The notes under the pieces were generated by a model. The model worked only from the letters and a program-made list of their open reading frames with translations. It searched no databases and was not told the DNA's origin. 27,154 bases of DNA from a virus, in the IMG/VR virus record IMGVR_UViG_3300049856_000216, positions 1-27,154 of that record; one strand, given 5' to 3'. A program made the position numbers and the translations under genes. Within the stretch, counting starts at the first letter, position 1. The number at the start of each line of letters is the position of its first letter. Below, piece by piece: positions 1 to 5,365 of this stretch.

Positions 1-48
1 GTCCCACAGGCGGGCGCCCATCCTCGGCCCGAGGTTGTCAGGTCTCAT
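1..48 (-). CDS. Partial tetrapeptide-repeat small protein (third family copy, runs off left edge)
   Basis: The ATG at 48 overlaps the TGA of the upstream copy as ATGA (45-48), and reading continues past position 1. The 16 visible codons begin MRPDNLGPRM and go on to GARLWD. This is the header seen in the genes starting at 299 (minus) and 5165 (plus), with the N-D pair swapped to D-N. The repeat phase also matches: three residues after the second Met, then a Leu that opens the first tetrapeptide. Two copies in a row with a 4-nt overlap look like tandem gene duplication. Function is unknown and the 3' end is not in the window. Confidence 0.5.
   Translation of the reverse strand, partial: MRPDNLGPRMGARLWD
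19..48 (-). repeat. 30-bp palindromic header, copy 1
   Basis: This is one of three copies of a 30-bp sequence that starts ATGAGACC on its coding strand and contains a 13-bp palindrome (CCTCGGNCCGAGG). It differs from the other two copies at a few positions in codons 4 and 5. Confidence 0.85.
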
Positions 49-299
49 TGGTCCCTCGGAGCGTCCAGGTGGTCCCACAGGCTGGCGTCCAGGCGGGCGT
101 CCAGGCGGGAGCCCAGGCGGCCCCACAGGCGGGCGTCCAGGTGGTCCCACAGGCTGGCGTCCAGGCTGGCGTCCAGGCGGCCCCACAGGCGGGCGTCCAG
201 GTGGGCGAATAGGCGGGTGTACACGCGGTCATACACGCGGTTGTACAGGCAGTCCCACATGCAGGTGCTCATCCTCGGTCCGAGGTCATTAGGTCTCAT
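45..299 (-). CDS. Small protein with MRPNDLGPRM header and about 16 tetrapeptide repeats
   Basis: 84 residues, not a family I recognise. After MRPNDLGPRM and three more residues, the chain is a run of four-residue units with a hydrophobic first position (Met, Leu, Val) and often Arg, His or Ser in the fourth: LYNR, VYDR, VYTR, LFAH, LDAR, LWGR, LDAS, LWDH. The start overlaps the stop of the DUF6745-like gene (TGATG, 297-301), and the stop overlaps the next copy (ATGA). The 12-bp DNA repeat keeps several frames open, so an open frame alone is weak evidence of coding. Better evidence is that the tetrad register relative to the header is the same in all three copies, that header differences between this copy and the 5165 copy are synonymous (AAT/AAC, GGA/GGG), and that all copies point with local transcription. 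No signal peptide or catalytic motif is visible. Confidence 0.5.
   Translation of the reverse strand: MRPNDLGPRMSTCMWDCLYNRVYDRVYTRLFAHLDARLWGRLDASLDASLWDHLDARLWGRLGSRLDARLDASLWDHLDAPRDQ
49..260 (-). repeat. Degenerate 12-bp tandem repeat (minisatellite)
   Basis: On the plus strand the stretch is built of imperfect units such as GGCGTCCAGGCG and CCCCACAGGCGG, repeated about 16 times with point differences. A unit length divisible by three means gain or loss of units would not shift the frame of the minus-strand gene. Units nearer the header (about 210-260) are more diverged than those in the middle. Confidence 0.9.
270..299 (-). repeat. 30-bp palindromic header, copy 2
   Basis: Nearly identical to the copy at 5165-5194: two differences, one in the Asn codon and one at the centre of the palindrome, both synonymous in the reading frame. 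It lies directly at the 3' end of the DUF6745-like gene. Confidence 0.9.
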
Positions 300-1186
300 C
301 AGCGTTCCCAGACGTAGGACAGCCTAGGATCTGCGTCACAGTCGGCGGGACTCCGTTCCGGCAGCCCCAGCGCCGCATATGGTACCTGCCAAGCACGAGC
401 ACCAAGTGCGGTGGCGCATTGTGACGACACCTGCTCGACATATGTCGGCTGAGAGCCATCCAGTAACGGGGGAGATTGTTTTGAGAGCACCCGTTCGCCG
501 CTGGGCACTGAGTAGAGCACATACTCGAGACTTTCCTCGCTCTGGCGGCTCAACTCCGTTGCACCTAGCAGCTCTAGCGCGCGCGCCCAACCGAGACGCT
601 CGGCCCATGCGCGTCGAATCTCCGTCGTCATCTTCAGGGCTCCGCTCGCCAAAGATTCTGGGTCCATGATCACGGATCTGGGTACAATTACCCCGTGCCA
701 CGCATAGACCTCCTGATCGCTCCAGGCTATAGCCGGACCATCGGCGCAATGCAGTTCCCAGGCGTTATCACGCTCGCATGTGTGGGGAAGCTTGACCGCA
801 CAAAAGCCGTTTTTGTATACGACGGAGTCGTAGCAGTCAGCAGACAATTTGGACACCGACAACAGATCGGCCGTGTCCTGGTCGCCTTCAAGCGCTCCAA
901 TCTCTAACGCCACTTCCAGGTGTGATTGCCATATTTTCGTGTACACACCGATCAGGTCGGATGACACGGTGTTTTTTGTTTTTCTTTGCCAGTCTGACAG
1001 ATCTTTGATCGACTCGAATATCACGATATGCTCAGGCGGGTCCCAACCAAAGAGTCTATACAGAGCGTCCACTGCTGGCCGCAAAGACTCTGGTGTGATT
1101 TCGGCGTAGGTTAGCACGCTGCATTCAGCCGCGCGTTGATCAACGATTGCCCATTGTTCTGGTGTGAAGTCTTCAATTTTGCTCAT
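299..1186 (-). CDS. DUF6745-like protein
   Basis: 295 residues. From memory, the central part resembles the uncharacterised DUF6745 family: a LHCADGPAIAW segment, then YAWHGVIVP, then a Glu-Ile-Arg-Arg stretch running into WAERLGWARALELLGA. Members I recall have a similar HC-DGPA / WHGV pair followed by E-RR-ERLG. Biochemical function is not established for the family. It lies 3 nt downstream of a small gene that also matches the usual partner of this family, and its TGA overlaps the ATG of the repeat gene (TGATG). It belongs to the leftward operon headed by the exonuclease-annealase gene. The family call rests on motif memory. Confidence 0.65.
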   Translation of the reverse strand: MSKIEDFTPEQWAIVDQRAAECSVLTYAEITPESLRPAVDALYRLFGWDPPEHIVIFESIKDLSDWQRKTKNTVSSDLIGVYTKIWQSHLEVALEIGALEGDQDTADLLSVSKLSADCYDSVVYKNGFCAVKLPHTCERDNAWELHCADGPAIAWSDQEVYAWHGVIVPRSVIMDPESLASGALKMTTEIRRAWAERLGWARALELLGATELSRQSEESLEYVLYSVPSGERVLSKQSPPLLDGSQPTYVEQVSSQCATALGARAWQVPYAALGLPERSPADCDADPRLSYVWER

Positions 1187-1189
1187 GGT

Positions 1190-1489
1190 TCAATCCTCGA
1201 TTGCCGAACGGCCTTCACCCTCAACCAATGCCGCAATTCGATAGACGCCAGCGGGCAGCTCGCCGTCAGTGTGACGACCCATGTGGGAGATGACCGTGGG
1301 CGCATCAAGCTCCACAGTCGTAACTGTCGCTGCCCCCTCACCCGTTGTGCGGAAGCGGCACGGCCCGATCAGTGTATGGGGTGCCGTATCGCGCCCGGCT
1401 AGCACCAGGTCAACGGTGGGCGTTAGCGCCCCATCCGCTTTGTCAAGTTTTCTTAGAACCAGGTCACCATGCCGAAATAGTTGTTCCAT
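1190..1489 (-). CDS. Small DUF6745-partner-like protein
   Basis: 99 residues from the ATG at 1489. I chose this start because GAGG (1500-1497) sits 7 nt upstream. A TTG at 1495 is in frame but would lie only 1 nt from that site. The layout (FRHGDLVLRKL near the N-terminus, VLAGRDTAPHTL, then a late LPAGVYRI) resembles small proteins often encoded next to DUF6745 genes. Those carry a GDVLL start, a VLA-GE-TGHAH middle and a LPPG-YRV end. The HAH motif is not intact here. No function is known. It lies between the exonuclease-annealase stop (2 nt gap) and the DUF6745-like gene. Confidence 0.6.
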   Translation of the reverse strand: MEQLFRHGDLVLRKLDKADGALTPTVDLVLAGRDTAPHTLIGPCRFRTTGEGAATVTTVELDAPTVISHMGRHTDGELPAGVYRIAALVEGEGRSAIED

Positions 1490-1491
1490 CG

Positions 1492-3003
1492 TCAAACCTC
1501 CTCAAATTCAGAATCAATCGGTCCGTTGCCACCAGTGGCCTCGTCCGGAGTATACAGCCCCATTGTTACGTCTGGGTAGACGGCGCGCGCTAGGTCGACG
1601 GAGCATCGGTGGCGCAGCATAGCTCGGCGGTATTTGTCCCAGTTGCTAGGCTCGCCGCTCTGGCTGCGGCCCTCATAGCCATCGCCACGCTTGACCACGA
1701 GTCCAGCCGCGCAGGCGTCCGTCATGTCCCACGATAATCGCGACTCAGAGCGCGCGCCCCTGCGTTTCGTGGCGTAGGTCGCCTTCTCGCGCGTGGACTC
1801 CACTAGGTCGAAATACTCGGCAATCCCGCTTTTTAGCACCAGCCCGACCACGAGATCGGCTTGCATTACGACCTTTCCCTTGATGACATGGAACGCGGCG
1901 AGCGACGTTGCCGCGTCAATGCCGAGCGAGCGCCCACGCATGATTACCGCGAAAATGGCCTGGTGGTTTGGGAATTGTGTATAGAGTCGGGACTCATGCA
2001 GGTGTTTGGCGAGCGTGAACGCACTCGCTGTGCTTGTTGGCTCGAGCTGCACTGACCAGTCCTGGTGCACCACGGTAGTCGCCAGCGCCGTCTGACGCAG
2101 AGGCTCGGGTTTCGAGATAGCAGCTTCGTTGACTGGCGCCGATGGCTCTTGTTCTGCTGTTTCTTTCACTGTTTTCTCCTCTGGCTCCCAAATGCGTTCG
2201 TCCCAAGTCTCCGTGACCGCCGCCGGCGCGTCAACCTTTTCAGGCTCGCGAAATAACGCGTCGAAATCGAGTGGCGCATCCGCGCGCAGCTGGATTAGCC
2301 GGCGCCATGTCTGGATGGGCCCGGCGCATTCGAGAAGCGCGGCGCCGTTCGCGGGCTTGATGTTGTTTGGCTCAAGCCCCAAGGCCCTGTAGATGCCCGC
2401 CAAGTCGTCATACTGCATGAGCAGTTCTGCCGCCCGCATGGCGCCGATGCCAGGCACGCCCGGGATATTGTCTGATTTGTCACCTACTAGCGCCAGGTAG
2501 TCGCCCATTTGGTCAGGCGCAACGCCGAACTTTTCGACCACCTGGAGCCGATCGAATTTGACACCGGTCATTGTGCTGACGACAGTCACGCCGTCGCCCA
2601 CGAGTTGGAGCAGGTCCTTGTCTGCGCTCGCCACCACGACAGTCAGCCCGCGCTTGCGGGCCTCAGCCGTCGCAGCTGCCAGCAAATCGTCAGCCTCGAA
2701 CCCCTCGGACTCCCAGCAGACAACTCCGTCAGCGCGTAGCGTCTGGATTGTCGCGCGCAGCTCCTCGATTGAGGCCTTGTCTTTCTCGGTCCTATTGGCC
2801 TTGTATTCCGGGAATTCCGCCTTTCTCCACGATTTTGGCGAGTCGCAGCAGATCGCGCAGAGCCCAGGGTAGGTCGAGCGTAGTGACATGACCTGTCCTA
2901 GCGCCCTATTGCGAGCGGCACTGATCTCGTCGTTCGCGCTTGAGTGCCAGGCGGCCCAAAATATCGAGCCCATGTCGAGCAGCAGCAGTGTGTCGTCTCC
3001 CAT
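1492..3003 (-). CDS. Fusion of FEN/Pol I-type 5'-3' exonuclease with RecT-like annealing domain
   Basis: 503 residues in two parts. Residues 1-250 form a 5' nuclease of the Pol I/FEN type: Asp10 in LLLLD, the Lys/Arg-rich FPEYKANR, GFEADDLL (101-108), SADKDLLQL with Asp128 and Asp130, and GDKSDNIPGVPGIG (174-187), the helix-three-turn-helix that binds DNA. A Pro/Glu-rich linker spans about 255-315. Residues 325-490 resemble phage RecT-like single-strand annealing proteins: IMRGRSLGIDAATSLAAFHVI, KVVMQADL, then NWDKYRRAMLRHRCSVDLAR and YPDVTMGLYTPDE. In phages these activities normally come from adjacent genes. Joined, they would resect a 5' strand and load the annealer on the exposed 3' strand. 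No frame disruption is visible between the parts. The start at 3003 lacks a Shine-Dalgarno sequence and may be leaderless. Confidence 0.85.
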   Translation of the reverse strand: MGDDTLLLLDMGSIFWAAWHSSANDEISAARNRALGQVMSLRSTYPGLCAICCDSPKSWRKAEFPEYKANRTEKDKASIEELRATIQTLRADGVVCWESEGFEADDLLAAATAEARKRGLTVVVASADKDLLQLVGDGVTVVSTMTGVKFDRLQVVEKFGVAPDQMGDYLALVGDKSDNIPGVPGIGAMRAAELLMQYDDLAGIYRALGLEPNNIKPANGAALLECAGPIQTWRRLIQLRADAPLDFDALFREPEKVDAPAAVTETWDERIWEPEEKTVKETAEQEPSAPVNEAAISKPEPLRQTALATTVVHQDWSVQLEPTSTASAFTLAKHLHESRLYTQFPNHQAIFAVIMRGRSLGIDAATSLAAFHVIKGKVVMQADLVVGLVLKSGIAEYFDLVESTREKATYATKRRGARSESRLSWDMTDACAAGLVVKRGDGYEGRSQSGEPSNWDKYRRAMLRHRCSVDLARAVYPDVTMGLYTPDEATGGNGPIDSEFEEV

Positions 3004-4133: not shown

Positions 4134-4310
4134 ATGTCGATTGACTATAGCGATACAGTTGGATGGCCAGCTGCTGCACCGCGCGTGTACAGCGACCCGC
4201 GCCGAATCATGCCGCCACCTACGCGCATGGCTACGCGGAAAAATGCATTGGACCGGCATGCCCGCTATCGAGCACGCAAGCGACTTGCCAGTCTACTGGT
4301 GAAACCGTGA
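4134..4310 (+). CDS. Small basic hypothetical protein
   Basis: 58 residues, not recognised. I chose the ATG at 4134 because a strong GGAGGA (4125-4130) sits just upstream. A TTG at 4056 in the same frame overlaps the methyltransferase stop and would add 26 residues without a ribosome site. The N-terminal half is acidic to neutral with several Pro; the C-terminal half (ATRKNALDRHARYRARKRLA) is strongly basic, as expected for a nucleic-acid-binding tail. Its TGA overlaps the GTG of ruvC (GTGA, 4307-4310). Confidence 0.55.
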   Translation: MSIDYSDTVGWPAAAPRVYSDPRRIMPPPTRMATRKNALDRHARYRARKRLASLLVKP

Positions 4311-4819
4311 CTATTTTGGCGATTGACCCGGGTCTCGCATGCACTGGTTGGGCCGTGCTATCAGCGCGCACTGGCCGACTGCGCATGCGAGACGATGGGA
4401 TTGCGCTCGCGGGTTCGATTAGCACGTCTCCGAAAATAGGCACATTGGAGGGTAGACTGGCGCTAATCCGTAGCTCACTCGCCGAGCTGTTTCGGGAATT
4501 CGATCCTGGCCATTTAGCAGTCGAGGGATACGCCTATCAGGGCGAGCGCTCGCACGGTCCTAACGGGTTTGTCATCTCGCGTATCGTCGGCATGTGCGAG
4601 GGGATTGCAGAGAGCAACAAAGTTGAGTCGTTGACAGTGCTCGACAAAAACACTGTAAACCGCTCGCTCGGTCTTACTGGCGAGGTGCCGAAAGCACGCG
4701 TGCGGCTGATGGTTGAGAGTGCTCTGAAAATCAAGGCTGGCTTGCTGCGAAACGAGCATGAGGTAGACGCAGCGGCGCTCGGGTTTGTGGCGTATTTGAG
4801 ACTGAGGAGGTGGCAATGA
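4307..4819 (+). CDS. ruvC: RuvC-like Holliday junction resolvase
   Basis: 170 residues from the GTG at 4307, the usual RuvC length. It starts MTILAIDPGLACTGWAVL, with the first catalytic Asp at residue 7. The second acidic residue is Glu73 in LAVEGYAY, and the C-terminal HEVDAAALGF carries Asp154, matching the HxxDA motif of the RNase H-like fold. The enzyme would cut branched DNA made during replication and recombination and may trim junctions before packaging. It fits the nearby exonuclease-annealase fusion. A longer in-frame reading from 4163 overlaps the previous gene and adds non-homologous sequence, so I did not use it. Its stop overlaps the next ATG (ATGA). Confidence 0.88.
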   Translation: MTILAIDPGLACTGWAVLSARTGRLRMRDDGIALAGSISTSPKIGTLEGRLALIRSSLAELFREFDPGHLAVEGYAYQGERSHGPNGFVISRIVGMCEGIAESNKVESLTVLDKNTVNRSLGLTGEVPKARVRLMVESALKIKAGLLRNEHEVDAAALGFVAYLRLRRWQ

Positions 4820-5175
4820 ACCCATACCTGGAAGTACCCAAACGATTCGCGGCGGAAAACACCTTCGTCGCATGCGTGGCTGAGGCCTACGACATGACGC
4901 CCGAAAAGCTCTTGGCTCCAGGCCGACGAGCTAGAGCAGTCGAGGCCCGCGCCGTGCTCTGCTGGATGCTCCGAGTGGCGCGACGAATGTCGTTTCCCGA
5001 GCTGGGGGAAATCATCCATCGTGACCATACGTGCGCGATTGCCGCAATCCGGATGGTCAGAGCTAGCCGAGAGTCAAGCCCCGAGTTTTTGGCCTTCACC
5101 GATACTCTGCTGGCTGCGGTGCAGTCTCGGGTGTTGTCGCCGGTGTTGTGGAGCAGGAATTCCGATGAGACCTAA
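4816..5175 (+). CDS. Stand-alone DnaA domain IV-like DNA-binding protein
   Basis: 119 residues. Residues 15-85 match the C-terminal DNA-binding domain of DnaA: VAEAYDMTPEKLL, then EARAVLCWMLR, MSFPELGEIIHRDHTCAIAAIRMV. RDHT plus the following helix is the DnaA-box signature. The ATPase and helicase-loading domains are absent, so it probably binds DnaA-box-like sites as an origin marker, decoy or regulator. Start at 4816: GAGGAGG (4804-4810) is 5 nt upstream; a GTG at 4810 lies within that site. The last codons (Asp-Glu-Thr-stop) lie inside the 30-bp repeat header, which therefore supplies the stop codon. The original C-terminus may have been replaced by insertion of the repeat gene. Confidence 0.8.
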   Translation: MNPYLEVPKRFAAENTFVACVAEAYDMTPEKLLAPGRRARAVEARAVLCWMLRVARRMSFPELGEIIHRDHTCAIAAIRMVRASRESSPEFLAFTDTLLAAVQSRVLSPVLWSRNSDET

Positions 5176-5194
5176 CGACCTCGGGCCGAGGATG
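5165..5194 (+). repeat. 30-bp palindromic header, copy 3
   Basis: It is inverted relative to the copies at 19-48 and 270-299 but in the same sense as local transcription. It contains CCTCGGGCCGAGG, a 6+1+6 palindrome, and the TAA that ends the DnaA-IV gene. Confidence 0.9.
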
Positions 5195-5365
5195 GACGCT
5201 CCCCTGCCCTCTCTACTGCGCTGCAGCCTGCCCTCTCTACTGCGCCCCCGACTGTCCGACCACCTGCGGATCCGCCTGCGCCTACGCCTGTGCCTGCGCC
5301 TGTATCTACGCCTGGGTGTCCGCCTGTCCAACCGCTTGGACGACCGCTTGGAGGACCGCCTGTGA
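5165..5365 (+). CDS. Small tetrapeptide-repeat protein, family copy 3
   Basis: 66 residues. The start is MRPNDLGPRM, identical at protein level to the gene at 299 (minus). After three residues come units LPSL, LRCS, LPSL, LRPR, LSDH, LRIR, LRLR, LCLR, LYLR, LGVR, LSNR, LDDR, LEDR. The period and register match the left-end copies, but the inner residues differ and are much more Arg-rich. Strict Leu every fourth residue is neither a heptad coiled coil nor a pentapeptide solenoid. The ATG overlaps the 3' end of the DnaA-IV gene in another frame. Whether it is translated is unproven, and function is unknown. Confidence 0.5.
   Translation: MRPNDLGPRMDAPLPSLLRCSLPSLLRPRLSDHLRIRLRLRLCLRLYLRLGVRLSNRLDDRLEDRL
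5204..5362 (+). repeat. Degenerate 12-bp tandem repeat, right copy
   Basis: Imperfect 12-bp units such as CGCCTGTGCCTG, CGCCTGTATCTA and CGCTTGGACGAC, more diverged than the left array. Units at the proximal end (about 5204-5250) include a near-duplicate CTGCCCTCTCTACTGCGC that occurs twice. Confidence 0.8.

Follow-up and report, generated by a model that had tools for sequence, protein, structure and literature searches.

The locus studied here raises the question whether a 5' nuclease and a single-strand annealing protein, which together make up known viral recombinases, are joined in one polypeptide, and what such a polypeptide would do. The window, i.e. the whole stretch of DNA analysed, covers an IMG/VR virus record from end to end (27,154 bases), in itself a partial virus contig of the tailed-phage type that has, on its plus strand, a terminase-like gene, one match to a head-tail adaptor and others resembling internal virion proteins.

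The two halves of the gene

An earlier note on this DNA had described one frame holding a FEN-type 5' exonuclease and a RecT-like annealase. The open reading frame and its translation bear this out, with an ATG at 3003, a stop at 1494-1492 and 503 uninterrupted codons in between (1495-3003), all on the minus strand, which had not been given before (Table 1). All motifs quoted earlier were recovered in the translation, for the nuclease D10, GFEADDLL, SADKD and GDKSDNIPG and for the annealase RGRSLGID, NWDKYRRAMLRHR and YPDVTMGLYTPDE.

Table 1. Position of the fusion gene, its parts and nearby genes in the window
Feature	Position	Strand	Basis
FEN-annealase fusion gene, 503 aa	1492..3003, stop included	-	one open frame
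FEN / PolI-type 5' nuclease domain, residues ~4-255	2239..2994	-	PF02739 and PF01367, phrog_107, structure
Span with nine acidic metal-site residues (D10, D54, E103, D105, D106, D128, D130, D175, D178)	2470..2976	-	
Linker, residues ~256-318, Glu/Pro/Ala-rich, predicted disordered	2050..2238	-	low pLDDT
RecT/Red-beta-type annealase domain, residues ~319-492	1528..2049	-	PF03837, phrog_4171, 7UJL profile, fold
Small protein directly downstream, overlapping the fusion stop	1190..1495	-	ORF
DUF6745 protein, gene 3 of the leftward run	299..1186	-	PF20530 9e-10
RuvC-like Holliday-junction resolvase, same early region, outside the fusion	4163..4819	+	PF02075 2.4e-8, phrog_159 1.1e-12

The N-terminal half matched the Pfam families PF02739 (5_3_exonuc_N; 1.2e-25, 90.5 bits, curated cut-off 34.3) and PF01367 (5_3_exonuc; 1.5e-20, 73.9 bits, curated cut-off 40) as well as the exonuclease family phrog_107 in PHROGs (7.6e-34), and a sequence search of the PDB returned M. 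smegmatis Pol1, Taq, ExoIX and T5 FEN. All nine metal-ligand acids of FEN enzymes are found in the window protein and, like R60, Y67, K68 and R71, show no change in any of the 51 aligned fusions. Structural comparison using VIA-align gave a Z of 29.9 (rmsd 1.8 Å, 243 residues) against E. coli ExoIX (3zda) and the same Z against a plant plastid exonuclease (9l56), the best matches being flap enzymes or 5' exonucleases (ExoIX, M. smegmatis FEN and T5 FEN). The predicted fold, the Pfam families and the metal-site acids are thus shared with the 5' nuclease domain of bacterial DNA polymerase I, with ExoIX/Xni and with the T5 D15 FEN, which are, in contrast, either attached to a polymerase or stand-alone.

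For the C-terminal half, Pfam revealed PF03837 (RecT) at 4.7e-6 with 26.7 bits against a cut-off of 24, a modest margin, and PHROGs the RecT-like annealases phrog_4171 (6.5e-15) and phrog_561 (7.5e-10). A profile built from 18 fused RecT halves had lambda Red-beta (7UJL, 4e-4) as its sole match in the PDB. A fold search with the whole chain gave FEN matches only; with the C-terminal half folded alone (pLDDT 90.8) 7UJL came out on top in Foldseek (E 1.1e-4, no other match below 0.001), and in VIA-align Red-beta 7UJL (Z 8.2; 138 residues, 3.8 Å) was followed by RecT 7UB2 (Z 7.1) and RAD52 (Z 6.3), Z values which are moderate, yet ranks 1-3 are all annealases. Among the aligned fusions G361, R473 and E488 of this half are invariant. 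By family and by predicted fold the C-terminal half is a RecT/Red-beta-type annealing protein, homologous (24–44% identity) to the annealases of actinobacterial, Salinibacter and freshwater phages in phrog_4171 and phrog_561, which differ in being stand-alone genes. The FEN and RecT-like identities first read from the motifs are consequently upheld by Pfam, PHROGs and AlphaFold2/Foldseek, and the reservation that the C-terminal half might prove not to be an annealase was answered by profile searches in which both families, RecT included, scored above the cut-off.

The AlphaFold2 model of the whole chain, based on 55 aligned sequences, has a mean pLDDT of 88.8, with each domain mostly above 90, and a pTM of 0.68, at which the relative placement of the halves is not interpretable. 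Prediction of the full chain and of the C-terminal half yielded the FEN fold and the Red-beta/RecT fold, joined by the Pro/Glu linker that had been proposed, where pLDDT falls to about 46–55 over residues 261–310.

Recurrence of the fused frame and its surroundings

IMG/VR was scanned twice, using a FEN motif and then a pattern derived from the fusion alignment, and identical FEN domains were removed, the counts being lower bounds. The same FEN-RecT order in one frame was found in at least 63 other distinct IMG/VR sequences, with linkers of 37–189 aa (median 72). Since the two-domain frame recurs in this way, the assembly error joining two genes that the earlier note had considered is excluded. 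When scanning viral contigs with the fusion as a single sequence no relative was found, and RecT-motif scans returned stand-alone RecT and no fusions; FEN-motif patterns alone revealed the fusions.

Searches of 50,697 phage records and 72,556 plasmids gave no match that spans both halves (phage MT836087, a match of 70% coverage, was rejected as a plain PolI), and the fused frame was found in none of the 298, 398, 396 and 395 genomes sampled from four bacterial phyla, about 1,490 in all, where three long frames (L274, L284 and L285) were rejected as fused RecT candidates as they are without FEN. The fusion is therefore known from metagenomic contigs only, which would fit an artefact, be it an assembly or gene-calling error or a decaying chance fusion. 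Such an explanation is scarcely credible in view of the number of distinct sequences with the same order in one frame, the coherent clades formed by the fusion domains, the complete retention of the nine catalytic acids and the dN/dS values of 15 close pairs, 0.09–0.37 for FEN and 0.02–0.45 for RecT and mostly higher for the linker, which indicate purifying selection on both halves.

Exonuclease and annealase are here not separate polypeptides but lie in one frame. Shine-Dalgarno-like internal starts that could give a separate RecT were seen at the junction in 4 of 63 cases, compared with 8 and 2 in control windows, i.e. without enrichment.

The small protein that overlaps the fusion stop gave no match in Pfam or PHROGs and weakly resembles (E 0.002) a protein encoded downstream of recT in contig L090. 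Another small protein (4810-5175) matched the C-terminal DNA-binding domain of DnaA only (PF08299 4.8e-11) and adjoins the RuvC-like and replication-initiation genes. The fusion operon is flanked by repeated small ORFs starting with MRPNDLGPRM or MRPDNLGPRM and continuing in repeats of four residues (12 nt). Two of these ORFs lie at the left end of the contig on the minus strand (window 1-299, one of them cut by the end) and one lies on the plus strand (5165-5362), and with these an inverted pair of 45 nt (7-51/5162-5206, 87%) is associated. Virus contig L009, picked via its terminase (82% identical to that of the window), was ruled out as a fusion-bearing relative when its whole record gave no match to the fusion protein, and because the terminase is shared but the fusion protein is not, the early region is mosaic.

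Possible resection and flap trimming

The pairing of a viral exonuclease with an annealase is of a known kind, termed two-component recombinase in PMC7496540, and in Firmicutes phages recT adjoins genes for YqaJ-like or DUF3799 exonucleases, according to PMC8093625. Both lambda Exo with Red-beta and RecE with RecT combine a 5' nuclease function with an annealase of the RecT/Red-beta fold, but do so with two genes and a PD-(D/E)XK nuclease where the fusion has one chain and a FEN nuclease; the nearest stand-alone RecT, that of L090 (44% identity), also differs in having a separate PDDEXK exonuclease gene downstream. The earlier statement that exonuclease and annealing protein are normally separate and the exonuclease non-FEN therefore stands, for lambda Red and RecET, in its first part and is too broad in its second, as T7 gp6 is a FEN-family nuclease (phrog_107 5e-79, Pfam 5_3_exonuc_N) and by annotation is required for phage recombination. 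Since T7 gp6 shares the family, it is the fusion that is new and not the use of a FEN-type nuclease as a recombination exonuclease. Unlike the two halves studied here, T7 gp6 and gp2.5 are separate genes, and gp2.5 is an OB-fold SSB with an annealing role and not RecT-like.

When the records were searched for partner genes, YqaJ or phrog_69 exonucleases were found in none of 34 FEN-annealase records and a PDDEXK_1 match in one, below the cut-off (15 bits), while exonucleases of the YqaJ, PDDEXK_1 or phrog_69 type were present in 4 of 16 stand-alone RecT records (Fisher p about 0.009, computed with 33 fusion records). The window record gave no YqaJ, PDDEXK_1 or phrog_69 match, though as a partial contig it could have a partner exonuclease or SSB outside. 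SSB genes were found in 5 of the 34 fusion records.

Our reading, which we consider probable, is that the fusion is a phage single-chain recombinase in which the FEN domain trims 5' ends and the RecT-type domain anneals, replacing the two-gene exonuclease-annealase pair, in line with the earlier suggestion that both activities would be coupled on a single molecule. The FEN-family nuclease would degrade or trim the 5' ends of phage dsDNA while the flexible linker would hold the annealase close by on the same substrate, and the RecT/Red-beta-type domain would then bind the exposed 3' single strand and anneal a complementary strand, with end repair, concatemer formation or recombination-dependent replication as the outcome. 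We infer the polarity and substrate of the nuclease, the annealing, the oligomerisation via the annealase half and any hand-off during loading. The working form of lambda-type annealases is a large ring or helix, an assembly in which steric or control problems could arise if each subunit carried a nuclease.

Resection cannot be taken for granted, since what FEN enzymes are mainly known for is the cutting of flaps and the removal of RNA primers. The main rival is accordingly an annealing-coupled flap trimmer, in which strand pairing by the annealase at a fork or gap comes first and the tethered nuclease acts second, clearing away the displaced 5' flap or the RNA primer to leave a joint fit for sealing. 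FEN/PolI 5' nucleases cut flaps in a structure-specific manner, the structural matches of the nuclease half are consistent with this, and no PolI-type polymerase domain is attached, many phages presumably relying on host synthesis. It appears rather unlikely, however, given that the family includes a recombination exonuclease, T7 gp6, and that no other end-resecting nuclease was detected in the fusion records, so that a 3' tail would need a maker, for which host nucleases could serve. With no other recombination exonuclease detectable and with the annotation of T7 gp6, we prefer 5' resection in which the 3' strand is captured at once; flap trimming could be a second function, and both roles may be present.

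Ancestry and exchange of the annealing module

A maximum-likelihood tree built from 121 FEN domains places the fused FENs in one clade of 71 rows (support 100/99), distinct from the FENs of PolI and of other phages that were tested. This clade consists of 64 fusions with RecT, three with phrog_3290 and one with Sak4, together with one unfused FEN (L261) and two FENs cut by contig ends (L119 and L242). In the RecT tree a 98/95 branch separates 56 thinned fused RecTs from 43 stand-alone RecTs. Both trees are compatible with one origin of the RecT fusion.

Behind the same nuclease other annealases were found. The phrog_3290 "single strand annealing protein" (E about 1e-48) is fused to FEN in L126, L129 and L269, and with L289 and L290 this amounts to five contigs among the matches listed. 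An AAA_24/Sak4-like annealase follows FEN in one frame in L121 (3908-6139), the sole such contig among the matches listed. This 83.6-kb virus contig also carries an SSB gene. Comparing L126 (phrog_3290) with L132 (RecT), the FEN is 60–86% identical (64–86% per 50-column block), the linker motif KDPRADEFLRQEAAARE is common to both and the flanks are homologous on either side, whereas the C-terminal modules are unrelated by sequence. Profile comparison of fused RecT halves with two FEN-phrog_3290 proteins detected no homology, and a PDB sequence search with the phrog_3290 annealase gave chance urokinase matches only; judging from its sequence pattern we read it as putatively Rad52-like. The FENs of L124 and L191 are 97% identical but their RecTs 62%, which would fit an exchange at the linker also between one RecT and another. 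That annealases have been swapped behind one nuclease points to modular evolution within the gene and not just between genes.

The FEN-annealase partnership occurs also beyond the fused form, since L261 has an unfused FEN gene (242 aa) with an Erf gene (PF04404 7.8e-12; phrog_155 1.7e-18) abutting or overlapping it on the 5' side, and in L294 a phrog_3290 gene overlaps the start of an unfused FEN gene. In both the order is annealase then FEN, opposite to the fusion.

The commonest neighbour is a replication-initiator family (24 of 68 loci, the window included); other neighbour families are DNA methylases and, by our reading of the appearance of the sequences, tyrosine integrases (19 loci). The initiators and the PolI-like character of the FEN domain would agree with a replication enzyme that removes Okazaki RNA primers while RecT anchors it to ssDNA at the fork, recombination being incidental. 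That seems very improbable considering that every exchangeable partner is an annealing protein (RecT, phrog_3290, Sak4-like and, unfused, Erf) rather than a generic ssDNA-binding domain, and that some records, as given above, have SSB genes of their own.

Most likely, the viral exonuclease-annealase recombinase is present here in a single-chain form that swaps modules, and the recurrent weld with a varied annealase suggests a one-molecule recombination machine. More tentatively, it might represent a new class of viral recombinase with a FEN chassis and exchangeable, unrelated annealing modules (RecT, Rad52-like and Sak4-like), in which physical coupling would be required to coordinate cutting with annealing. 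No natural nuclease-annealase fusion was found in the literature searched, including PMC8093625, PMC7496540, PMC11783212 and PMC7824862, a coverage that is incomplete and leaves a prior description possible; as far as this literature shows, the single chain, the FEN-annealase fusion and the swap of annealase family behind one nuclease lineage are new.

For lambda Red and RecET it has long been asked how close the contact between exonuclease and annealase has to be for recombination, and natural single-chain, module-swapped versions are ready constructs for tests of coupling by linker cut or module swap, besides being candidate one-gene recombineering tools.

Two further kinds of FEN fusion were observed. 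A phage frame in L134 (3995-5575) joins FEN to a uracil-DNA glycosylase (PF03167 6.3e-26), and in L148-L151 (2948-4741, 598 aa) FEN stands behind an N-terminal region with weak similarity to NusG/KOW and to an antiterminator (phrog_6386).
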